Shown here: piece by piece, positions 5,617-23,353 of the stretch
Layout of the letters: every line of letters starts with the position of its first letter
Numbering within the stretch: position 1 is the stretch's first letter
From: a virus
Virus record (IMG/VR): IMGVR_UViG_3300017739_000120
Span: 1 to 23,378 of that record
DNA length: 23,378 nucleotides
Direction: 5' to 3' (one strand)
The notes under the pieces: generated by a model
What the model saw: only the letters and a program-made list of their open reading frames with translations
What the model was told of the DNA's origin: nothing
Databases searched by the model: none
Position numbers and translations under genes: made by a program

Positions 5617-5960
5617 CATATGTACTAACTGACTTGCCGTTTTTGACGGAGGAAATGGAACTGGCAAAAGAACGTGCAGCCCAGACCGCCAGAGACAATT
5701 ATCACAAGGACAGGTACAGTAACAGGCATCAGAGGGAGGTAGAACGACTGGATAAGCTGATAGGCTTAATACAGCAACCGGTTACTGTTGAGCCTTATAG
5801 TAATGGATGCGTGTTGTTGAACAAAGAATATGTTGTCAGCTTGTCCAACAATAATTGGAGAGTTCGCGGTAAAAATAAATGGTACAAGCATAAAAACGAC
5901 TTGTCTCATTTTGTAAACAAATACGTGCTAAAGGATGAAAAAAATGAAACTAACACTTGA
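5613..5960 (+). CDS. 115-residue hypothetical protein
   Basis: Not recognised. The start overlaps the helicase stop (ATGA). Residues 12-53 are highly charged and helical (ELAKERAAQTARDN, then REVERLDKLIGLI), probably a coiled coil. The second half is beta-rich with many Asn, Lys and Trp (NNNWRVRGKNKWYKHKND) and looks like a small nucleic-acid-binding or protein-interaction domain; that is inference from composition only. The last 17 bases overlap the chosen polymerase start. Position between helicase and polymerase suggests a replication accessory factor. Confidence 0.55.
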   Translation: MTYVLTDLPFLTEEMELAKERAAQTARDNYHKDRYSNRHQREVERLDKLIGLIQQPVTVEPYSNGCVLLNKEYVVSLSNNNWRVRGKNKWYKHKNDLSHFVNKYVLKDEKNETNT

Positions 5961-7986
5961 TGTAGAGAACACAGTCACCAAGCGTGACGGCAAGATGCAC
6001 CTTGACCCATTTGAGCCAGAGAACTCACTGACTATGGTGGGTATGCTCAGTGACAGAGGCGAGGAATGGATAGTCACCTTTGACCATTCAGAGGAACACG
6101 CTACTCCAATGGGCCACGAGGGCGTACAAGAATGGCTTGACCAGACTACTATCCTTGTCTGCCACAACGCTGCCTACGACTTGCTGTGGCTCTGGGAGTC
6201 CGGCTTCAAGTATGACGGACCTGTCTTTGACACGATGCTGGCAGAGTATGTCATGCAACGTGGTCAGAAAGAGCCGCTGTCACTTGAGGCTTGTGCTGAA
6301 CGCTATCAGTTGGACACGAAAAAGCAGGACACCCTGAAAGAATACTTCAACAAGGGCTACAGCACTCGTGACATCCCACATGCAGAGTTGTCGGAGTACC
6401 TGTCTGCTGACCTTCATGCTACACAGCAACTGTCTGACCGACTGGTGTATCGGCTGAATACTGCACAAGATGCAGGACTGCGTAGCACTGTTGACTTGAG
6501 TAATCAGGTAGCAGTACGCCTTGCTCGTATCTACCAGAGAGGCTTCGCCGTTGATGTGTCCAAGCTGGATGAGGTGCAGACGGAGTTCGAGCAGGAGAAA
6601 AAAGACCTGATCGTTGCTCTTGAAGGGCATGTCCGCCGTGTTATGGGTGACACCCCCATCAACTTGAACAGCCCAGAGCAACTTTCGTGGGTCATCTATG
6701 GCCGCAAGGTCTTGGACAAGCAGGAGTGGGCCAGCGTCATTGACCCATACATGTCTGATGATGATTTCCGATATGCTATCAACAGTCGTACAGAAAAGCT
6801 GTACCGCACGAAAGCATCCCAATGTAAAGACTGCAATGGCACAGGCTACGTCCGCAAGATCAAAAAGAATGGGGAGCCATTTGCCAAGCCTAACAAGTGT
6901 GGCACATGCGGCAGTGAGGGCTTTCTGTTCATACCAACAGAGACTGCGGCTGGCTTCAAGTTCAGACCACCGTCGGCCAAGTGGGCAAGTGCCAATGGTT
7001 TCAGTACAAGCAAGCTGAACCTAGAGACGCTTGAGGGTGCGGCACGTGCCAAAGGAATGACAGAAGCTGTAGACTTCCTGTCAAAAGTTCGACGCCTGTC
7101 CGCTGTGGATACATACCTGTCATCATTTGTTGACGGTATCCGTACACATGTGAAGACGGATGGAAAGCTACATGTTCGTCTGCTGCAGCATCGAACCTCT
7201 ACGGGTCGTCTGTCTGGTGCAGACCCTAACATGCAGAACATGCCACGTGGTGGAACCTTCCCTGTCAAGAAGGTGTTTGTTTCTCGCTGGGAAGGCGGTA
7301 AAGTTCTTGAGGCGGATATGGCACAGCTTGAGTTTCGTGCCGCCGCATTCTTATCACAAGATGGAGTTGCTATTGAAGAAGTATCTACTGGGTTTGATGT
7401 ACACGCATACACCGCTAAAGTTATTACCGATGCTGGTCAGCCTACGAGCCGACAGGATGCGAAGGCGCATACATTCGCGCCGTTATATGGCGCATCAGGA
7501 TATGGTCGCACAAAAGCAGAAGCAGCGTACTACGAACACTTCACAGACAAGTATCAAGGAGTGGCCGATTGGCATTCTGCCTTGGCGAAGGAAGCGTTGA
7601 CCACCGGCAAGATCACAACGCCATCTGGTCGTGAGTTTGCATTCCCTGACGTGGTTCGTAAGTCAAGTGGTCGCGTGTCACACTTTACACAGATCAAGAA
7701 TTACCCGGTTCAGTCATTTGCTACTGCGGACATTGTGCCTATTGCACTTATCCACATAGATGACTTGCTTTCGGGTATGCAGTCATGTATAGTGAATAGC
7801 GTACATGACAGTATCGTTATCGACGTTCATCCAGATGAAGAGGAGAAAGTAATCAATATCATAAATCAAACAAATGAAGTTCTGAGTGAACTCATCACGC
7901 TACGCTGGGGTATCAAGTTCAATGTGCCGCTGCTTTTAGAATCAAAAATTGGGCCAAATTGGCTTGACACTAAAGATGTGGCGTGA
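5944..7986 (+). CDS. DNA polymerase, family A, with exonuclease and DnaJ-like zinc segment
   Basis: A 680-residue replicative polymerase of the Pol I/T7 type. Exonuclease domain: D6 and E8 in LTLDVENT, D in PVFDTMLAEY, and Y152/D156 in EYLSAD, so proofreading residues are present. Between exonuclease and polymerase lies a cysteine segment: CKDCNGTG (294-301) and CGTCGSEG (319-326), the CxxCxGxG repeat of the DnaJ zinc-finger domain. Polymerase motifs: A EADMAQLE (D458, E463), B RQDAKAHTFAPLYG (R503, K507, F511, Y515; F511 aligns with E. coli Phe762) and C VHDS (D622). Start 5944 is chosen because AAAGG ends 9 bases upstream; ATG 5935 is too close. The zinc segment recalls the HMO-2011 polymerase (memory). 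Confidence 0.93.
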   Translation: MKLTLDVENTVTKRDGKMHLDPFEPENSLTMVGMLSDRGEEWIVTFDHSEEHATPMGHEGVQEWLDQTTILVCHNAAYDLLWLWESGFKYDGPVFDTMLAEYVMQRGQKEPLSLEACAERYQLDTKKQDTLKEYFNKGYSTRDIPHAELSEYLSADLHATQQLSDRLVYRLNTAQDAGLRSTVDLSNQVAVRLARIYQRGFAVDVSKLDEVQTEFEQEKKDLIVALEGHVRRVMGDTPINLNSPEQLSWVIYGRKVLDKQEWASVIDPYMSDDDFRYAINSRTEKLYRTKASQCKDCNGTGYVRKIKKNGEPFAKPNKCGTCGSEGFLFIPTETAAGFKFRPPSAKWASANGFSTSKLNLETLEGAARAKGMTEAVDFLSKVRRLSAVDTYLSSFVDGIRTHVKTDGKLHVRLLQHRTSTGRLSGADPNMQNMPRGGTFPVKKVFVSRWEGGKVLEADMAQLEFRAAAFLSQDGVAIEEVSTGFDVHAYTAKVITDAGQPTSRQDAKAHTFAPLYGASGYGRTKAEAAYYEHFTDKYQGVADWHSALAKEALTTGKITTPSGREFAFPDVVRKSSGRVSHFTQIKNYPVQSFATADIVPIALIHIDDLLSGMQSCIVNSVHDSIVIDVHPDEEEKVINIINQTNEVLSELITLRWGIKFNVPLLLESKIGPNWLDTKDVA

Positions 7987-13674: not shown

Positions 13675-14217
13675 ATGGATGCACAAACTTACACTAGACA
13701 AGAACCAAAGTTTGAGGACGGCGAATGGTGGTACATTCGTCCCAACGGCAAACGAGAACGTGTTGAATCACATGCGAAGAAGAACATCACACGCATGTTT
13801 GTTAACGGAAAGTACGTTCCAAAGAGCCACCCTCTGCACAAGCCGGGGAACTTCAAGTCGCTTGATGACGCGTGGTCACACGAAAAAATCGAAAGCACAA
13901 AGATGGGTGATGTCTACATCATCACAAATGATGCTTGGCCTGACTGGGTAAAGGTGGGTAAGGCAAGTATGGCAGAAGACAGATTGAATGGATACCAAAC
14001 GTCTTCTCCGTTTCGTGACTACGAAATCATTGCTACCTTGGCTACGCACAACCGACACACTAAGGAACGCGAGATGCACAGAGCATTCGATCATTTTTCA
14101 GAGGAACGTCGAGGTGAGTGGTTCAAGATTGATAGGGTGAAGGCAATCAACATCTTCAACGTACACGCAATGAATGAACTGAGTAAGGAGTTGGAAAATG
14201 AACAAGAGTCTAGCTGA
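13675..14217 (+). CDS. T5orf172 (GIY-YIG-like) domain protein
   Basis: A 180-residue protein. Residues 78-155 match the T5orf172/MUG113 type of the GIY-YIG superfamily: GDVYIITN (the 'GIY' strand), WVKVGKA (the 'YIG' strand), R103 in EDRLNGYQTSSP, E131 and H135 in KEREMHRAF and RGEWFKID at the end. These positions fit the catalytic Tyr, Arg and Glu of DNA nicking enzymes, but activity is unproven for most members. Residues 1-75 are basic with Trp and Tyr and may bind DNA. GAGGAG is 7 bases before ATG 13675. It could act on host or phage DNA, or be a homing-type nuclease. It overlaps the next gene by 20 bases. Confidence 0.75.
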   Translation: MDAQTYTRQEPKFEDGEWWYIRPNGKRERVESHAKKNITRMFVNGKYVPKSHPLHKPGNFKSLDDAWSHEKIESTKMGDVYIITNDAWPDWVKVGKASMAEDRLNGYQTSSPFRDYEIIATLATHNRHTKEREMHRAFDHFSEERRGEWFKIDRVKAINIFNVHAMNELSKELENEQESS

Positions 14218-14814: not shown

Positions 14815-17800
14815 TTATCTGACTCCTATTTTTTCCCATCCCTTTGCCATATCAGTCAATATAGAATAGTTGTAGTGTTCACCTTCTTCGGGTTTTCCAT
14901 ATACCTTATGATATTCCTCATATGCCTTATTCTGATACGTGGATTTAATTTTATTAAACTCGCTTTTGCCCATCGCATCAAAGCCGTATTTTTCTACGCC
15001 AGCATATCTAGAACGATGTCTAGCAAGTTTCATAATTTGAGATTTATAGTCATCAATTAGATCAATCACAAATTCAGCTTGCCTAACTCCGTCGAGACTT
15101 TTGTACTCTTCGCTATTCTGCAAGATAGGCACTATGTACTCCACAGCATATTCACCTATAAGATTACCGATAAGTGTATCTGCCTCTGGTACACCAGTTT
15201 TTGATACAAGTCTTCTAGGCGATATTTTTAACCTAGCCATCTCGTTTTCAAGAAAATTACGCCTATCCCGCAAGAGAATACCAGCTACTTGACGTGTTAT
15301 AGGAATTTGCCTACGAATAGGTGCGTCTCTTGTACCCGGTTGGTACGCTTCCGGGGCAGTGTACTGAGGAAGCCACGAACTTTGACTGGTAAACTCCTGA
15401 ATGTTTTTTTGTAGCGCGTAGTTCATAGGAATACGTGCAGTGGACTTGGTTACAATCAAGTCAAACAAATTGGATGAGTCAGTTTGACGTGCAATCACCT
15501 CATCGTCAGGAGATAGCCATGTGTTTGCAATATCCTGTCCGGCAGTCAGTGGGATTGTATATGTACTAAACAGATTAGAAATATAATTTCCTGTAATTTT
15601 ACCCGCTTTTTGAAAAGCATCTTGATCGTCCCGCAACAAGTCACGAATAGCACCGTCAATGGCATAAGCACCAAAACCTGCCCTCATCTGTGTACCTGTT
15701 AGTGCTTGGATTGCATCAGCAATAAATCGTCTATCGCCAATGACAGGATCACCATTCTTGGCTTTTACGTACAGGTCTGCGAAGAATAGGTATGGTGCAG
15801 CGGGAAAGAAAGGACGCATGTCGAATGTACGTCCATCATCCATTTTGTACTCGTACCAATTCTCTCCTGCGTTTTCACTGCCTCTAAACGCGACAGCACC
15901 AGCAAGTATACCTGTACCTATAAGGGACTTTGCAATCTCTTCATAGTTGTCTGCATCTTTTGCAAAAGAACGTGCAGCACCTTGAAAAATGTATGCAGGT
16001 GAATACTCATACGTAAAACGCAATGCGTTCATAATAAAGCGGGGGAAAGGCACTAGGGAAGTAGTCAAGAAGGGAGCAGAGTGAATGGCACTCACAAAGG
16101 CTTTACCTGCTGTAGTGTTTGGCGTTGCCTGATATGTGAAGTACAGCGAATCTTTAATCGCTTTATCCAGCATCTCTTGACCGCGCTTGTCACCAAACAC
16201 AGTCTGAAACTTACCATCTTCAATGATGTTCAGAAGATTGAAGTCTTTTGCTGTTACGTCTTTACCTTCAGATAATCTCTTCTGAAACTGCTCATTAAGC
16301 TGCCGTTTGAGAGAGCCAGAAAATGCTGCTTGCTTAAAAAAGTTATCTGTAAGCTGGTTGAGGGCATTGAGTTCCATTGCTATTGCTCTGGACGTATTCA
16401 TACCCTTTTTCTTTCCGGTTTTACCGTCGATATCCCGAAGCTGACGATATAGTGCTTCGGCCTTTTGATCGAAGCCCATCTGAAATATTTCTTTGATAGC
16501 ACTTGATTCCTTGGTATTCATCATGCCGTAGATTATTGACATGGAATCTGAGTTAGGATCATCAAAGTTAAAACCTTTTTTGCCTTTACCAAAGCCTACA
16601 GTTTTGAGACCCGACGCAATACCACGATCAACCAGCTTTGTTACACCATCAATACCGGCACGTCCAAATCCACCGACGCCGTTACGGATTGTTGTTGCTG
16701 TCTGTGAGGTCATAGCAGCCAGACGAACTGTATCCAGTTTTCTGAACAGACCATCTACTTCTGCTTTATTGTCAACGGCGTCTGATTTAGTTAGTGCAAG
16801 GCGGACATCACCGTCATTTACAGCCTCTTCAAGTTCCTTTATTTTCTTCAGTGCTTCTTCGTCAAGGCCAAATATCTTATTGGCAGCGGCATTATTCAAC
16901 CGCACTTGCAGTCGCTTGGCCTGTGCCATTGCTGCGCCACGTCTACCCCAATCAGATGCATCCGCCATTACAAACGCACCGAAGTCTCCATGCGTCAGCT
17001 TGTACTTCTCCAAAATACTGCCATACAGCTTCTCTGCTTTTTCAGGGTCTTTCTTGGCTACCTCTTCAAAGGCACGTGCTACAAACTCTGTAATGCGTTC
17101 CTCTGGTGCCTTTTCCAGACCCGCCTCTGCAGCAAGTTCTACCATGCCAGCATAGACACGCAGTGTTTTTTCCGGTGTCATGGACATATTGAAGTCTGGC
17201 TCTAAGTCCTTACCCTCTTGCATGGTATCGCGTACAATCTTGCCTTTAGCCACTTCGTTCTCGTCAAGCGCACGAAGGCTAGGCAAGCTGTCTTTCACCT
17301 GCTTTGCAAGTTTTTTGTTTTTCTTATTTTTTGTTAGCGTCTTTGCAGCTTCAATGGTAGCTTCTTCTTCTTGCTCAAGAACTTTAGCCACGAGATCAGG
17401 TGTATCCTTTTCGATATACTTTTTAACGCCGCCTTTACCAGCATAAACTACACCAGCAGCAGGAAGAGCCGCACTCAGTCCGAAGGCCAAGGCGGTTTCA
17501 CCGGGGTTATAGTCATCGCGCAGGTCTGCAGTAATCTCTGTATTTTGCGCTGCAACATTTTGTAATGACCCACCAATGCCTTCAGCAATGACGGTAGTTT
17601 TCACAGGATTTGCGGCGGCTTTTGTAGCCAGTGTAGTGATTGGGGTTTTGAGGGATTGCATCAGTGTGCGATTTACAGCAACCTTCGCACCTGTCTGTGC
17701 GGCGATTCCACCCGCCTTACCCGCACCGGGTAGCAGAAGACCAATGTATGTTGACGGGGCTGTGAGAATACCCTCTGCATAGTCTGCTGTAGCAGTAAGA

Positions 17801-18294
17801 AAACCATCAGCAAACGCTGGCATCTCATTAAATGTCTGATACAGAAGACGGTAGTCACTAAGACGCTGTGCAGCTTTCTCACGAGTTTCTTGTGTTAGTT
17901 CTGGTGTTTCTGTTGCATCTGCTGCTGCAGCGGACACATACCGATAGTCACCACCTGCGGTAATCTCGTTGACGTTGAAAGAACGGAAGTGTTCAATGTA
18001 CTCTTCCATAGCCACATCTGGGTCTGTGATGTTGGTCATCCCCAAACGGTCTTGTACAAAACGTACTGCGGCCTCACGTACAGCAGAATTATCTTCGATA
18101 TTTTTCTGTGCAGTGATAGCTGCGGCTTCGTTAATCTCTTCCGGCTCTTCTTCCTGTTCTTCTTGGGCTGTAACAAGCTGGTCAAGAACACTCATAGATT
18201 TTGGCGGTACTGCTGATATAGCTTCAGGTGCCGGTATAGCAGATACGGTTTTTTCATCCTCGTCATCTGCAACAAGTTGATCTAGTACACCCAT
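14815..18294 (-). CDS. Large virion protein, probable internal/ejection protein
   Basis: The largest gene: 1159 residues, predicted particle component. No enzyme motif is recognised. Features: an acidic N-terminus with the block VLDQLV repeated at residues 3-8 and 36-41, several hydrophobic Ala/Gly stretches (about 175-201 with YIGLLLPGAGKAGGIAAQ, 268-290, and 788-802 with LIGTGILAGAVAF), a hydrophobic-aromatic region at about 728-755, and long helical parts. This mix resembles large internal core proteins that are ejected with phage DNA (T7 gp16-like role), but there is no sequence evidence of homology. Ribosome site AAGGAA lies before ATG 18294 and comes from the end of the previous gene. 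The stop lies at the terminator. Confidence 0.55.
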   Translation of the reverse strand: MGVLDQLVADDEDEKTVSAIPAPEAISAVPPKSMSVLDQLVTAQEEQEEEPEEINEAAAITAQKNIEDNSAVREAAVRFVQDRLGMTNITDPDVAMEEYIEHFRSFNVNEITAGGDYRYVSAAAADATETPELTQETREKAAQRLSDYRLLYQTFNEMPAFADGFLTATADYAEGILTAPSTYIGLLLPGAGKAGGIAAQTGAKVAVNRTLMQSLKTPITTLATKAAANPVKTTVIAEGIGGSLQNVAAQNTEITADLRDDYNPGETALAFGLSAALPAAGVVYAGKGGVKKYIEKDTPDLVAKVLEQEEEATIEAAKTLTKNKKNKKLAKQVKDSLPSLRALDENEVAKGKIVRDTMQEGKDLEPDFNMSMTPEKTLRVYAGMVELAAEAGLEKAPEERITEFVARAFEEVAKKDPEKAEKLYGSILEKYKLTHGDFGAFVMADASDWGRRGAAMAQAKRLQVRLNNAAANKIFGLDEEALKKIKELEEAVNDGDVRLALTKSDAVDNKAEVDGLFRKLDTVRLAAMTSQTATTIRNGVGGFGRAGIDGVTKLVDRGIASGLKTVGFGKGKKGFNFDDPNSDSMSIIYGMMNTKESSAIKEIFQMGFDQKAEALYRQLRDIDGKTGKKKGMNTSRAIAMELNALNQLTDNFFKQAAFSGSLKRQLNEQFQKRLSEGKDVTAKDFNLLNIIEDGKFQTVFGDKRGQEMLDKAIKDSLYFTYQATPNTTAGKAFVSAIHSAPFLTTSLVPFPRFIMNALRFTYEYSPAYIFQGAARSFAKDADNYEEIAKSLIGTGILAGAVAFRGSENAGENWYEYKMDDGRTFDMRPFFPAAPYLFFADLYVKAKNGDPVIGDRRFIADAIQALTGTQMRAGFGAYAIDGAIRDLLRDDQDAFQKAGKITGNYISNLFSTYTIPLTAGQDIANTWLSPDDEVIARQTDSSNLFDLIVTKSTARIPMNYALQKNIQEFTSQSSWLPQYTAPEAYQPGTRDAPIRRQIPITRQVAGILLRDRRNFLENEMARLKISPRRLVSKTGVPEADTLIGNLIGEYAVEYIVPILQNSEEYKSLDGVRQAEFVIDLIDDYKSQIMKLARHRSRYAGVEKYGFDAMGKSEFNKIKSTYQNKAYEEYHKVYGKPEEGEHYNYSILTDMAKGWEKIGVR

Positions 18295-18296
18295 AG

Positions 18297-20507
18297 TTAT
18301 TTCCTTGACATCAAGCCGCCAGTAGCCTTACTATTATCCGTTACCCTCTTGTGTAAACGTCGTGCAGCATCCATAGGAATATTAAGCTGTTTAGCTATCT
18401 CTCTTGTTTCTCTATAGGCCGTACCCATAACAGAATCTACAATATCTTTAGCTATCTTAATTTCATCCTGCGGAGAGTAAGCAACAGTGTCTAAACTTTC
18501 GATAAGAGTTTTGGCTTCGTCTTCGGAAATATCAAGTTTTGAACTTACCTCACGAATTTTTAATCTCTGCGAACCCTTTTGCAAAATCGGCATATTTCTA
18601 ATAGCTTCAAGTGCAGCCACCTGTTGAGTATTAGCGTATGTAGTTTGGCGATCTGGTTCACCTTCTATGGCAGTATCTTCAATAGCCATTTTTGCTACGG
18701 CAGAATCCGTGCCTAATTCAGCTTCAAGTACAGAGATAAATTCAGGATTTTTATATCCTTTTGCTTTTGCGTCATCTAGCGCAGCCTGAATAGAAATTCC
18801 GTTCCGAAGTAAATCATTAACCATTTTAGTTGCACCAGCTGCATCGTCTGAATATGCAGCACGAACCTGTGATGTTCTGTCTGCTGTAGTATCCGCCTCT
18901 GCTGCAGCAGGTGTCTCACCACCCAATGCAGCAGCAGTCTGTGCAGAAGCAGCAGGGGCAGGGCTGTCTGTGGAGGCAACGGGGGCGACACCGAATGGCA
19001 CAGCAGCCAAAAATGCTTCAACATCCAACGCAGGATCAAGAACAGAAAGTTGATCTTCTACTACCTTTTTCGATACGTTTCTTTTTGCTGCTTCAATGCG
19101 GTCATATATAGCCATCGCATCAGCTTCTTCTTCTGAACTACGAAGTCGGGCTTCTTGTCCTGCACCACCGCCTTTGATTAGGTCAGAAATACGGGCATGG
19201 GCGTCTCTTTCTGTTTGGTCGAACCCCTGCAAGACATTTTTTTCTTCTGTTTCTATGGCTCGTACAAAAATACTAGACCAAGAGTTCATCTTTGCTGCTG
19301 AGGTAGCACCTTTAGGTTTGTTCTTTTCTATAATTGCTGCTCTTTGATTAAGAATAGCTACCTTTGCAGCAAACTGTTCCGGTGTAATAAGTTTCCTGTC
19401 TACTTGACGATTTAATTCTTCCCTCTCTTCAGCAATTTCTTCTCCGACTGTTTTACCCGGCTTACCTGTCAATTCTAGCTTACGTTTTTCTAGTTTATCT
19501 ACTTCTGTTCTATCAATAGTTCCAGTTTTCTCATACGCATCCATCATATCGTTGAGGGCAAACTCTATTTCTAGGTCGATACCAGCAAAAGCATCATCAG
19601 AGGTTTCTGCAGCTTTTATTTTTATACTACGATTTACAGCTTTTAGTTGAGTTTGTATATCTTTAGCTTTATCTGAACCGGCAGGAAACCGTTTAAGCTG
19701 CTCTTCTAACACAGCTTTCATGTCTTCTTCATCTTTAGTATTCAATACCGCCTGTTCTTGCTCATCACGCATTTTAGTGTACTTTTCTAAGAGAACCGGG
19801 TCTCCCTGTACATTTGCCAAAGCAAGTTTTTTAGTTGCGTAATCCAATCGTTCTGAAGGAGATTTATCGCGGAGAGAAAACTCTTCAGCCTTGAATGTAA
19901 TTGTCGGAAGCTGGGCAAGCGTAGTTACATCAGCACCATACAATGCACGAATTTCTTCACCTGCCTCTTGCATGGCGCGACCGGTAATGTCAATGTCTTT
20001 ACCAAGTATTGTGCCAACAAGTGTGCGGCCTGTACCTGTGTCCATTCCTTCGGGAATACGATAGTCCGTAGCAAATGTTTGTGGCGCACCAGCAGCGGCA
20101 ATAGCATAGTCATCCAGCGTACCTGCAGGAGCATCGAAACTAGCCCGATCAAAGTACGTCATGATATCAAAGCCGTTATCTTTGGCAGTCTGTAGTTCGT
20201 CAATTCGTTGATTAAACGCTTCTACGCTACCACGTTCTTTGAGTAGACCACCTGCATAGGCAATGGCTCTTTCTGCGTTGGCGTCACCACCCAATACGGC
20301 ATACGCACGTTCCAGTGCTTCTCTGTTTTCTTCAATTTCAGCACGACGCTTATCTTGATCTTTGATTGCGCGTTGTACCTGAAAGTCTTTCAGCTTATCC
20401 ACGCGAGTGTTGATGCGGTTGATGCTATCTTTCAGAGCCTTGTTAGCCTCTGTAGCAAAACCGGTTACAAAACCTTCACCAAATGATCCTAGATTGAGAA
20501 ACGACAT
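18297..20507 (-). CDS. 736-residue coiled-coil virion protein, probable internal protein
   Basis: Predicted structural protein. The N-terminus is hydrophobic then helical (FLNLGSFGEGFVTGFATEAN). Residues 25-70 and much of 215-400 are charged helical segments with coiled-coil character (DKRRAEIEENREALER; EEIAEEREELNRQ). Residues 505-545 form an Ala/Pro linker (PAPAASAQTAAALGGE), after which a compact helical C-terminal part ends in TGGLMSRK. The end GGLMSR is shared with the protein encoded next upstream (20509-21021). ATG 20507 is 1 base after that gene's stop and uses AGAGG from its last codons as ribosome site. Likely an internal or ejected protein that works with the 1159-residue product; inference from length, composition and order. 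Confidence 0.55.
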   Translation of the reverse strand: MSFLNLGSFGEGFVTGFATEANKALKDSINRINTRVDKLKDFQVQRAIKDQDKRRAEIEENREALERAYAVLGGDANAERAIAYAGGLLKERGSVEAFNQRIDELQTAKDNGFDIMTYFDRASFDAPAGTLDDYAIAAAGAPQTFATDYRIPEGMDTGTGRTLVGTILGKDIDITGRAMQEAGEEIRALYGADVTTLAQLPTITFKAEEFSLRDKSPSERLDYATKKLALANVQGDPVLLEKYTKMRDEQEQAVLNTKDEEDMKAVLEEQLKRFPAGSDKAKDIQTQLKAVNRSIKIKAAETSDDAFAGIDLEIEFALNDMMDAYEKTGTIDRTEVDKLEKRKLELTGKPGKTVGEEIAEEREELNRQVDRKLITPEQFAAKVAILNQRAAIIEKNKPKGATSAAKMNSWSSIFVRAIETEEKNVLQGFDQTERDAHARISDLIKGGGAGQEARLRSSEEEADAMAIYDRIEAAKRNVSKKVVEDQLSVLDPALDVEAFLAAVPFGVAPVASTDSPAPAASAQTAAALGGETPAAAEADTTADRTSQVRAAYSDDAAGATKMVNDLLRNGISIQAALDDAKAKGYKNPEFISVLEAELGTDSAVAKMAIEDTAIEGEPDRQTTYANTQQVAALEAIRNMPILQKGSQRLKIREVSSKLDISEDEAKTLIESLDTVAYSPQDEIKIAKDIVDSVMGTAYRETREIAKQLNIPMDAARRLHKRVTDNSKATGGLMSRK

Positions 20508-20508
20508 G

Positions 20509-21021
20509 TTAAGAACCTCTGGACATCAGACCGCCGACACGTTCTTCAGCAGCTTTTTTCATGCTATCAATAACGGGTTGGGCTTTAGAAGGATCAGAAA
20601 CTTCTTCCTCTGCATCCTTTTCTTTGAATTTTTCTACAGCAAGATCAACAAGGGAACTGCGCGTCACTTTGTCTTTTTCAAGGCCAGTAGTATATTTGAT
20701 ACCGGCAGTATCTCCGATCATCATAATTAGTTCGACAAGAACAGGCAGGATAAGCATACCCACATCAACGCTGTGCTTGCCTTCCATCACACTGCCAAGC
20801 TGCATTGTGTTTGCAATGGTAGTGACAGGAATACCCATCTCCATAACATCCAGAAGCTGTGCAGATACTTCTTCTGACTGCAGACGAGGCAGGTAGTAGT
20901 CCAGTGCTTCTTCTACAGTAGTATACTGCGCTGGTTGCTGCCACGGGCGAGAGCCTAGTTCAGCCGTAAGTGACTGACCGGGAATAGCGGCATCGAATGG
21001 TACAGCATCAAGTTCAGCCAT
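20509..21021 (-). CDS. 170-residue virion-module protein with C-terminal GGLMSR
   Basis: Unknown protein. N-terminal half contains a Pro/Gln part (SRPWQQPAQY) and helices, then one hydrophobic stretch at about residues 87-101 (VGMLILPVLVELIMM) that could span or touch a membrane, then a charged helical end (AVEKFKEKDAEEEV) and the tail VGGLMSRGS. GAGGAAG is about 8 bases before ATG 21021. It overlaps the upstream 72-residue gene by 8 bases. It may be a small internal virion protein or an assembly factor; nothing identifies it further. Confidence 0.55.
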   Translation of the reverse strand: MAELDAVPFDAAIPGQSLTAELGSRPWQQPAQYTTVEEALDYYLPRLQSEEVSAQLLDVMEMGIPVTTIANTMQLGSVMEGKHSVDVGMLILPVLVELIMMIGDTAGIKYTTGLEKDKVTRSSLVDLAVEKFKEKDAEEEVSDPSKAQPVIDSMKKAAEERVGGLMSRGS

Positions 21022-21232
21022 TCTTCACTTCCTCACGTTTTTGTTGGATTGTTTTCATGTACATGGCCACACGTTTTGTAGGACTAAGCATATCATTGTC
21101 GTCTTGCTTTTGTGTCATTGGCTTTTTAGGGCCAAGCAGACCACCCTTTTCTTCCACAGGTTTTTCGTCAACTAGCTTTTCCATAGCCCGTCGAATATTT
21201 TGATGTATCATTGGTGTGGGATTAGTAAGCAT
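21014..21232 (-). CDS. 72-residue hypothetical protein of the virion module
   Basis: Small charged protein, MLTNPTPMIHQNIRRAMEKL then a Lys/Glu-rich middle with KGGLLGPKKP (about residues 29-38) and a helical end (RVAMYMKTIQQKREEVK). GGLLGPKK resembles in form the GGLMSR tails of its neighbours, but sits in the middle. Only 6 bases separate it from the stop of the 704-residue gene; AAGAGA is a weak ribosome site, so it is probably translated by coupling. Function unknown. Confidence 0.5.
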   Translation of the reverse strand: MLTNPTPMIHQNIRRAMEKLVDEKPVEEKGGLLGPKKPMTQKQDDNDMLSPTKRVAMYMKTIQQKREEVKNG

Positions 21233-21238
21233 TATCTC

Positions 21239-23353
21239 TTATCCAAACTCGATGAAAGCACTACCAAGGGTGCCAAGCAGACCGCCAAGGGCAGAACCAG
21301 CAGCAGAACTGCTTGCCATCTTCTGTGCCTCTTTAGTTGCATCAGCACTAAGCTGGGCTACAGCCAGATTGTTCAATCGGTCAAGTTCACTGTCAGCAGC
21401 TTCCCAAGCATGTTCCATGCTATCAGCATAGTATTGCCACAAATTGTTGTAAGCGGTGTTACTAATGTCTAGCACTGCAGCCGCATTCAATTCATTTGCA
21501 CGGTTGACTGCCGCAGTATCCGCTGTAGCAATCTGCCTACGCCACTGTGCATTCGACTGTGCAATAACAACTTGGTTCTGTGCGTTAAACTGGTCACGCT
21601 GATTGTTCATTTCAGCATTGAAGCGTTCAATTGTATTTGCCTGACCGGCATTGAACTGCGCCTGTGCATTAGATTGTGCAGCATTAAACTGTGATGTCTG
21701 TGATGCAAGATTGGCAAAGAATTGGTCAACCTGATTTTGACTGGTAGCATTAAACTGGCTTGCTGCATTGGTAGCAGCTTGATCTGTAAACAACGACTGT
21801 ATAGTCTGCTGTGACTTAAACAACTCTGTCTGCTGTTGATTAGACAGGTTAGCCATGTCCATCTGCAAAAATGACTGTGCATTTTGTACAGCAGACTGCT
21901 GCCGGTTATTAAGATTAGCAGCATCCATCTGTGCAAGTGCAGATGCTTCTGCCATGACCATAGCTTGACGGTTAGACAAGTTGTTCAGGTTCATCGTGTT
22001 AGCAGCACGGCTGTTCTCAAGCTGTACTTGCTGCTCTGCAGTAAAGTTCATATTGGCAATATCACCAATACGAGCAGAGTTTTGTACACGTGCTTGGAAT
22101 GACTGGTCAAACTCTTGGCCAATAAACTGCGCACGTTGCTGTGCAGCAAGCATGGCACGTTGCTGGCGATTGGAAAGGTTCTGCGCCTCAAACTGTGCTG
22201 TTACAGCAGCATCTGCTTGTGCGATAGGAAGTGCAGCTTCAATAGTGGCCTGTACAATTGCCTGACCAGCAATGCTACTGGCACCAAGACCCCGTGCTGC
22301 CATTTGTTGTGTTGCATTACGAAGTGCGCCAGCAGCCCATGCAGGTGGGTTTGTAGCATCGAAGTTAGCAGTAAGCTGTGCAAGCTGACCCTGTACAGTA
22401 GCCTGTGCAGATGGTGTAGCTTCTGCTGCCTGTACCTGCTCTGTAAAAGTAGCAGCAGTCTGCGCATCAGCAGAACCAGTGATAAGTTCACCATCTTGGA
22501 TGTTTCGCTGTACAGGATTATCTATTAGTGTAGCATTTCCTTGCGCTTCTGTCAAGTTACCTACACTGGATGCTGTTTGCTGGGCCGCTGTGACCTGCGC
22601 ACGGGGGTCTACAGTACCTTGTGCTGCTTGGGTAGCCTGAAGTGCAGCATCAACCGCTGGTGCGGCTTGTGCGGCTTGCATCTGAGCAGCCTGTTGTTCC
22701 TGCACAGGTGCTGCTGTAGTGGTTGTAGCCATAGCTGTAGGCACAGAAACTGCACCTGTAACCATACCAGCACGAGGATCAACATACTGACCAGCTTCTG
22801 ATGGAGTTGTCGCAGCTACAGTTACACCACCTGTAGGTACACCCGGCTGAAACATACGTTGAATAGTAGCTTGTTGTACACTATCAGGCTGTGCTTGTGC
22901 AGCAGGTGTTTGTGTTTGCATCATAGCACGTTCAGCATCTGCTGCAGCTTTTGACCGCCTTTGATATTCAGGAGAATTTTGTATACGTTGTTGTTCTGCA
23001 TATTCAGGTGTACCGGGTAAGGGAAATGCCCCCGGCCCTGCACCAAATAAGTCAGGTCTTGGGCCAACCGAACCCGGCCCACGATACATGCCATCTTGCA
23101 CTGGCCCCATCAATGGCCCACCAGTGGCACCGGGTTCACCGGGACTAGACCTACCTATTGTACCACCCGTCTGCATCTTCACTACACCACCCTTTGCCAT
23201 CTGCACAGCAGCATTTTTAAACTGCTCCATACGTGCCTGACGTGCAGGGTCTTGTTCAATGTAGTTCTGGAACTCGCCCATGTTGCCTGTATAGCCCATG
23301 CTCTTGGCGATTTTGTTCATCGCTTCTGGTTTGAATGCCTTGAATACAGCCAT
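21239..23353 (-). CDS. 704-residue Gln/Asn/Ala-rich virion protein with 11-residue repeats
   Basis: Predicted structural protein of the virion arm. Residues 1-50 are a helical start. Residues 54-120 are Gly/Pro rich with GGVVKMQTGG. Residues 130-390 are an Ala/Gln/Thr-rich low-complexity stretch. Residues 392-633 show a strict 11-residue period: units such as NLSNRQQRAML, NLNNRQQSAVQ, NAAQSNAQAQF and NAGQANTIERF, with Asn at position 1 in 15 of 22 units and no insertions. The end (681-704) is Gly/Ala rich (GSALGGLLGTLGSAF). Such hendecads form straight helical rods or amphipathic surface helices. I recall proteins with QFNA-type repeats in marine phage genomes, unnamed. It may be an ejection or tail component. 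The start is at an ATG near the window edge, with GGGAA upstream. Confidence 0.7.
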   Translation of the reverse strand: MAVFKAFKPEAMNKIAKSMGYTGNMGEFQNYIEQDPARQARMEQFKNAAVQMAKGGVVKMQTGGTIGRSSPGEPGATGGPLMGPVQDGMYRGPGSVGPRPDLFGAGPGAFPLPGTPEYAEQQRIQNSPEYQRRSKAAADAERAMMQTQTPAAQAQPDSVQQATIQRMFQPGVPTGGVTVAATTPSEAGQYVDPRAGMVTGAVSVPTAMATTTTAAPVQEQQAAQMQAAQAAPAVDAALQATQAAQGTVDPRAQVTAAQQTASSVGNLTEAQGNATLIDNPVQRNIQDGELITGSADAQTAATFTEQVQAAEATPSAQATVQGQLAQLTANFDATNPPAWAAGALRNATQQMAARGLGASSIAGQAIVQATIEAALPIAQADAAVTAQFEAQNLSNRQQRAMLAAQQRAQFIGQEFDQSFQARVQNSARIGDIANMNFTAEQQVQLENSRAANTMNLNNLSNRQAMVMAEASALAQMDAANLNNRQQSAVQNAQSFLQMDMANLSNQQQTELFKSQQTIQSLFTDQAATNAASQFNATSQNQVDQFFANLASQTSQFNAAQSNAQAQFNAGQANTIERFNAEMNNQRDQFNAQNQVVIAQSNAQWRRQIATADTAAVNRANELNAAAVLDISNTAYNNLWQYYADSMEHAWEAADSELDRLNNLAVAQLSADATKEAQKMASSSAAGSALGGLLGTLGSAFIEFG

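Follow-up and report, generated by a model that had tools for sequence, protein, structure and literature searches.

A family of gapless 11-residue repeat proteins in phages related to HMO-2011, encoded at the head of an ejection-like gene cassette and with a possible part in DNA entry

The stretch of viral DNA analyzed here (the window, 23,378 nucleotides, IMG/VR record IMGVR_UViG_3300017739_000120) encodes a 704-residue protein of an undescribed family that obeys a remarkably strict repeat rule and occurs in a dominant group of marine viruses. Across hundreds of relatives, its repeat array has been gained or lost only as whole 11-residue units. We give roughly even odds (about 0.5) to the reading that this is an ejection-cassette protein of HMO-2011-type podoviruses that forms long hendecad helices within a multi-helix assembly; the protein would then be present in the virion, oligomerize, be ejected, and contact DNA. 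A role in getting DNA into the cell is plausible. The gene, its parts, and its neighbors in the window are as follows.

21239 to 23353, minus strand: open reading frame (ORF) of the 704-residue repeat protein, a relative of HMO-2011 phage1322_25
23177 to 23353, minus strand: N-terminal region (residues 1 to 59), common to many close relatives, with the pattern NMGEFQNY
22484 to 23176, minus strand: low-complexity linker rich in A, P, T, and Q (residues 60 to 290), whose length varies freely in relatives
22181 to 22402, minus strand: conserved pre-array domain (residues 318 to 391), with the motifs PAWA, RGLGASS, and ALPIAQADA
21785 to 22180, minus strand: array module 1 (residues 392 to 523), 12 units with a 22-residue super-period (NLxNxQQ...)
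21455 to 21784, minus strand: array module 2 (residues 524 to 633), 10 units of 11 residues (NA....Q..QF type)
21242 to 21322, minus strand: Gly/Ala-rich hydrophobic C-terminal tail (residues 678 to 704)
21014 to 21232, minus strand: 72-residue ORF separating the repeat and 170-residue genes
20509 to 21021, minus strand: 170-residue helical partner protein, with relatives in 26 of the 27 phage records that hold the repeat protein
18297 to 20507, minus strand: 736-residue cassette protein, resembling gp15 only in size and place
14815 to 18294, minus strand: 1159-residue cassette protein, resembling gp16 only in size and place

An earlier note on this DNA had claimed 22 gapless units of 11 residues, and the periodicity turned out even stronger than claimed. 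Residues 392 to 633, corresponding exactly to window positions 21455 to 22180, divide into 22 gapless 11-mers, in which identities at lags 11, 22, 33, and 44 numbered 51, 53, 44, and 40, against 24.9, 23.5, 22.4, and 21.3 expected from 1,000 composition-preserving shuffles (z-scores of 5.9, 6.4, 5.0, and 4.4, respectively). With lags 1 to 60 scanned, the values at lags 11, 22, and 33 were matched at any lag by 0 of 1,000 shuffles and that at lag 44 by 3 of 1,000, so that the 11-residue peak the note had expected over sequences of the same composition is present. Period scoring of the array gave z values of 14.1, 10.9, and 8.1 for periods of 11, 22, and 33, and no other period was prominent. 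Position 1 was Asn in 15 units out of 22, as the note had counted (P of ca. 2e-7, corrected for 11 columns). The note had also distinguished two halves, a distinction that is confirmed both here and by the separate behavior of the two modules in relatives: in the first half the z-score was 5.2 at lag 22 versus 2.7 at lag 11, showing that the 22-residue super-period is real, and the second half follows a plain 11-residue period (z, 6.0). Tandem Repeats Finder (TRF) found no tandem repeat in the DNA of the array, where nucleotide identity at lag 33 was only 0.355; at the DNA level, the repeat is therefore old and no recently formed tandem array.

A tblastn search located the repeat protein in 27 of 50,697 phage records: HMO-2011, Roseobacter CRP phages, Pelagibacter HTVC phages, Vibrio CHOED, Aeromonas MQM1 and 1233, Pseudoalteromonas Slicky01, Rhizobium and Sinorhizobium phages, and one uncultured podovirus. 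In IMG/VR, relatives are encoded at more than 580 places, and the assembled family comprised 191 distinct proteins. Those in phages are nearly all annotated “hypothetical protein,” and Pfam and PHROGs searches gave no named family for the window protein. Its nearest named relative, from HMO-2011, is 80% identical across 69% of the window protein and keeps the 11-residue register. This protein (phage1322_25) and the relatives from CRP, HTVC, CHOED, MQM1, phiM6, and RHph_N3 have the same pre-array domain, register, and cassette, and the HMO-2011-type homologues differ from the window protein in the number of units. Elsewhere in the window, positions 5935 to 7986 match DNA_pol_A and DnaJ_CXXCXGXG, the DnaJ match falling below its Pfam cutoff; a family A DNA polymerase with a partial DnaJ domain is a trait of HMO-2011-type phages (PMC9038755). 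These phages are short-tailed (PMC9038755, PMC6918029), the tail of MQM1 measures 9.2 nm (PMC10410586), and all phages with the repeat protein whose morphology could be checked are podoviruses (PMC6918029, PMC9038755, PMC10410586). Judged by these sequence matches, the window comes from an HMO-2011-type podovirus, in agreement with the podovirus-like context that the earlier note had suggested.

In 78 of 82 close relatives, the array was exactly as long as in the window. Across the family, array length was measured between two conserved anchors, PIAQ before the array and NxxWR after it, and the isolates had arrays of 149, 160, 171, 182, 215, 226, and 314 residues from anchor to anchor, all of them 6 modulo 11. 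The 147 full-length members showed nine array lengths, again all 6 modulo 11, together with 96 distinct pre-array (Met-to-array) and 36 distinct post-array lengths that were spread over all residues modulo 11. Eight relatives from bacterial contigs that have both anchors, fetched later, served as an independent test of the rule, and all eight fit (226, 226, 248, 314, 534, 424, 160, and 160 residues), three of these lengths being new. Overall, 13 array lengths between 138 and 534 residues fall in one residue class modulo 11, an agreement with a chance probability of ca. 3e-13 if lengths were free, although related lineages are not fully independent and the figure is a guide only. Homologues, to which the earlier note had pointed for comparison, thus keep the register in every anchored case. 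Apparent exceptions under the first choices of anchor were discarded as mis-anchored motifs or a pattern offset. The arrays of 534 and 424 residues, both in register, belong to proteins of 1258 (L239:674-4447) and 1181 (L240:58-3600) residues, and the former array has no proline. As whole-unit insertions and deletions are usual in tandem-repeat proteins, they indicate a constraint on the unit and not a function. The family amounts to a natural collection of hendecad arrays, from 12 to nearly 50 units.

A conserved boundary, D/N....N...QF, divides the array into two modules. The lengths of the first (40, 62, 84, 106, 150, and 216 residues) were all 18 modulo 22, the one of 139 in CRP-207 being the sole exception, and the second had lengths of 65, 76, 98, 109, 120, and 197 residues, all 10 modulo 11; the 205/21 split of CRP-13 was disregarded as a misplaced boundary. 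The two halves are therefore real modules that change length separately, in steps of 22 and 11 residues. Units resemble their orthologues in other relatives much more closely than their neighbors in the array, many columns are 95 to 100% conserved, and dN/dS values of 0.03 to 0.07 indicate strong purifying selection.

An AlphaFold model of residues 291 to 704, based on a 53-row alignment, was nearly all helix, in five long pieces (360 to 410, 417 to 456, 460 to 500, 505 to 569, and 575 to 703), with low confidence (pLDDT of 60 and pTM of 0.28). Proline is absent from residues 377 to 704. The helical nature proposed in the earlier note thus stands as a prediction, but a single straight amphipathic helix of ca. 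36 nm found no support: the helices of the low-confidence model are broken, and at 98.18 degrees per residue the whole-array hydrophobic moment was 0.016, under the shuffle mean of 0.055. On an 11/3 helical wheel, module 1 has its hydrophobic face at 129 degrees (positions 2, 10, and 8) and module 2 at 304 degrees (positions 11 and 8), a rotation of about 170 degrees between the halves, with Asn 1 unchanged in position throughout. Since the two faces are nearly opposite, helices with more than one contact face (multi-seam packing), or a folded-back arrangement, are likelier than a single amphipathic rod. The likeness of the array model to Vipp1 and ESCRT-III in the PDB was rejected as chance, these being generic long-helix proteins (best Z of 7.5 at 8.2 Å rmsd).

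The composition of the array (18.6% Ala, 17.8% Gln, 14.5% Asn, and 12.8% charged residues, with one Lys) bears on the membrane-lining helices of the apolipoprotein or alpha-synuclein type that the note had also offered. Apolipoprotein A and alpha-synuclein repeats do share the unit length of 11 or 22 residues; however, the array is low in charge, has a weak moment, and possesses neither a continuous nonpolar face nor proline punctuation, and no segment of transmembrane grade was detected in the repeat protein (Kyte-Doolittle maximum of 1.29). We consider amphipathic membrane-lining helices very unlikely.

Array length also speaks to the idea that one rigid helix acts as a ruler of the cell envelope, for which 242 residues would give 36 nm, close to the envelope width. 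However, phages of a single host strain, FZCC0040, have arrays of 160, 160, and 215 residues, Pelagibacter phages have arrays of 160 and 314, and the array of 534 residues would measure 80 nm if straight. Given this independence from the host, the 80-nm extreme, and the flip of the hydrophobic face in the middle of the array, a ruler is extremely unlikely, and the rod length suited to the envelope that the note had envisaged found no support over the range of 138 to 534 residues. Nor did array length correlate significantly with the length of any of the three partners.

At the end of the late operon, the repeat gene opens a cassette in which it is followed usually by an ORF of 62 to 74 residues and then by genes for proteins of 160 to 200, 350 to 1050, and 800 to 1890 residues, an order shared by almost all isolates for which this stretch is annotated; the small ORF is annotated at this spot in phiM6, RHph_N3_19, CRP-345, CRP-738, CRP-3, CRP-212, and ctYwJ313. 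The ejection operon of the T7/P22/SP6 type encodes gp14-like (181 to 240 residues), gp15-like (431 to 982), and gp16-like (609 to 1337) proteins, in that order (PMC8954989). The same small-medium-large order occurs in the window (170, 736, and 1159 residues), in the isolates, and in most of 137 loci, so the three downstream genes match gp14-gp15-gp16 of T7 and gp7-gp20-gp16 of P22 in place and size order, and the position of the repeat gene before them, in an ejection-like cassette, agrees to that extent with the interpretation in the earlier note. Compared with these operons, the cassette has the repeat protein as an additional member upstream, and it lacks the four to five membrane helices predicted for gp14-like proteins (PMC8954989), with none predicted in the repeat protein and one in the 170-residue protein. 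Searches of Pfam, PHROGs, and the PDB were empty or weak and revealed no relationship in sequence or fold to gp14, gp15, or gp16, and profile searches of the PDB with the cassette alignments gave nothing credible.

The 170-residue partner follows the repeat protein closely, being found in no others of the 50,697 phage records searched. Its AlphaFold model is helical (pLDDT of 82, ca. 97 in the core); it had no match in the PDB and one strong match in BFVD, to a 183-residue protein of the same length as the phiM6 homologue. The gap between the two genes holds variable extras (L099:10318-11259, L088:10495-10944, and L087:10042-11007), annotated as cell wall hydrolase, as lysine-acyltransferase, or as of unknown function, and cell wall hydrolase genes lie near or within the cassette in several phages.

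The place of the gene would also suit a part of the internal head, core, or scaffold that forms no conduit and remains inside the capsid, where it might, for instance, organize DNA above the portal. Podovirus internal core proteins are encoded at this place (PMC8954989), and helices rich in Asn and Gln and low in charge would fit such a part, but the operon carries its portal and coat genes at another place, and we regard this alternative as unlikely.

Tail-fiber genes lie upstream in the same operon, which favors a trimeric stalk of a tail fiber or appendage, namely, a hendecad coiled coil whose Asn layers are buried and which, in some relatives, would end in a Peptidase_S74 cap. This trimeric, endosialidase-type chaperone domain forms the C terminus of CRP-738, CRP-3, CRP-212, and L185, where it replaces or follows the Gly/Ala-rich hydrophobic tail (loci L092, L093, L094, and L185). 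“Undecad” trimeric coiled coils exist in NadA3 (PMC6191539); its 11-residue repeats are alike, and the S74-bearing relatives make a trimer possible, but the window family shows no adhesin features. Moreover, the S74 domain occurs in only 4 of the 191 members and was not detected by Pfam in the window protein, and the best PHROG matches of the S74 tails were to virion structural (head) and DNA ejection proteins, ahead of tail fibers. The high conservation of the array is unlike that of host-range fibers, and the Gly/Ala-rich hydrophobic tail is not a receptor-binding tip. A fiber stalk therefore has a low probability in our estimation. The PHROG “DNA ejection protein” match was not used as evidence on the array, since it vanishes once the S74 tail is removed.

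We thus return to the ejection-cassette reading, in which the DNA-ejection (internal virion) cassette would include the repeat protein as a long, all-alpha fourth component. It is favored by the cassette order and sizes, the co-occurrence with the 170-residue partner, the podovirus morphology, the helical prediction, the PHROG matches of the S74 tails, and the structural genes beside distant relatives in bacterial contigs; the want of a link to gp14, gp15, or gp16, the missing membrane helices, the loss of the ejection match with the S74 tail, and the poor array model speak against it. Eleven residues equal three helical turns, and hendecad helices could lie packed alongside one another, or alongside those of further copies of the protein, in a multi-helix sleeve or core. 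Leaving the head together with the other cassette proteins or before them, this sleeve or core might help to carry DNA across an envelope too wide for the short tail. Whole units would be added or lost, we propose, because only a three-turn step keeps the side chains on their face of the bundle. In the open literature, we found no virion proteomics for any relative and no source that places a member in virions.

A more specific version draws on the DNA pilot protein H of phiX174, a hendecad/heptad protein used in DNA entry, whose hendecad helices, with inward-facing Asn, Gln, and Arg, form a decameric DNA tube of solved structure (PMC7354561). Both proteins have hendecad repeats rich in Gln, Asn, and Arg, the helix of the window protein being predicted, and position 1 is N, Q, or R in 68% of cases across the family. 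However, protein H has only three hendecads and a charged outer face (K, E), and it belongs to a single-stranded DNA microvirus; no sequence relation between the two was found. For a single inward Asn/Gln/Arg face of that kind, the position-1 Asn is constant in the window protein, whereas the hydrophobic face flips between halves. We hold it to be decidedly unlikely that the array forms an extendable helical tube, with its lumen lined by an Asn/Gln/Arg face and its length tuned in three-turn steps, which would amount to an independent invention, in double-stranded DNA podoviruses, of a conduit of the phiX174 H type. The wider interest lies in a conserved, unannotated family with a clear structural rule (three-turn steps and two modules) and a conserved partner, through which the machinery that a dominant group of marine viruses uses for entry becomes open to direct test.

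Beyond these phages, five distant relatives on bacterial contigs (L244 to L248) combine the pre-array domain with shorter arrays, and four of the five show a clear lag-11 period. The genes at L244:8434-9411, L246:8836-9912, L247:4376-5248, and L248:8758-9717 encode proteins of 290 to 360 residues with the PIAQ pre-array domain, in bacterial contigs from Luteibacter, Magnetococcales, Paraglaciecola, and Burkholderiales bins. The L244 and L248 proteins had no match when searched against the phage records. In the three contigs checked (L244, L245, and L248), the repeat-type gene adjoins tail-protein genes, and in L244 also portal/adaptor and head genes; the head and tail genes next to the L244 and L248 genes are podovirus-like. 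In the window itself, a protein with a T5orf172/MUG113 (GIY-YIG-like) domain is encoded at positions 13675 to 14217, between the RNR and MazG genes.
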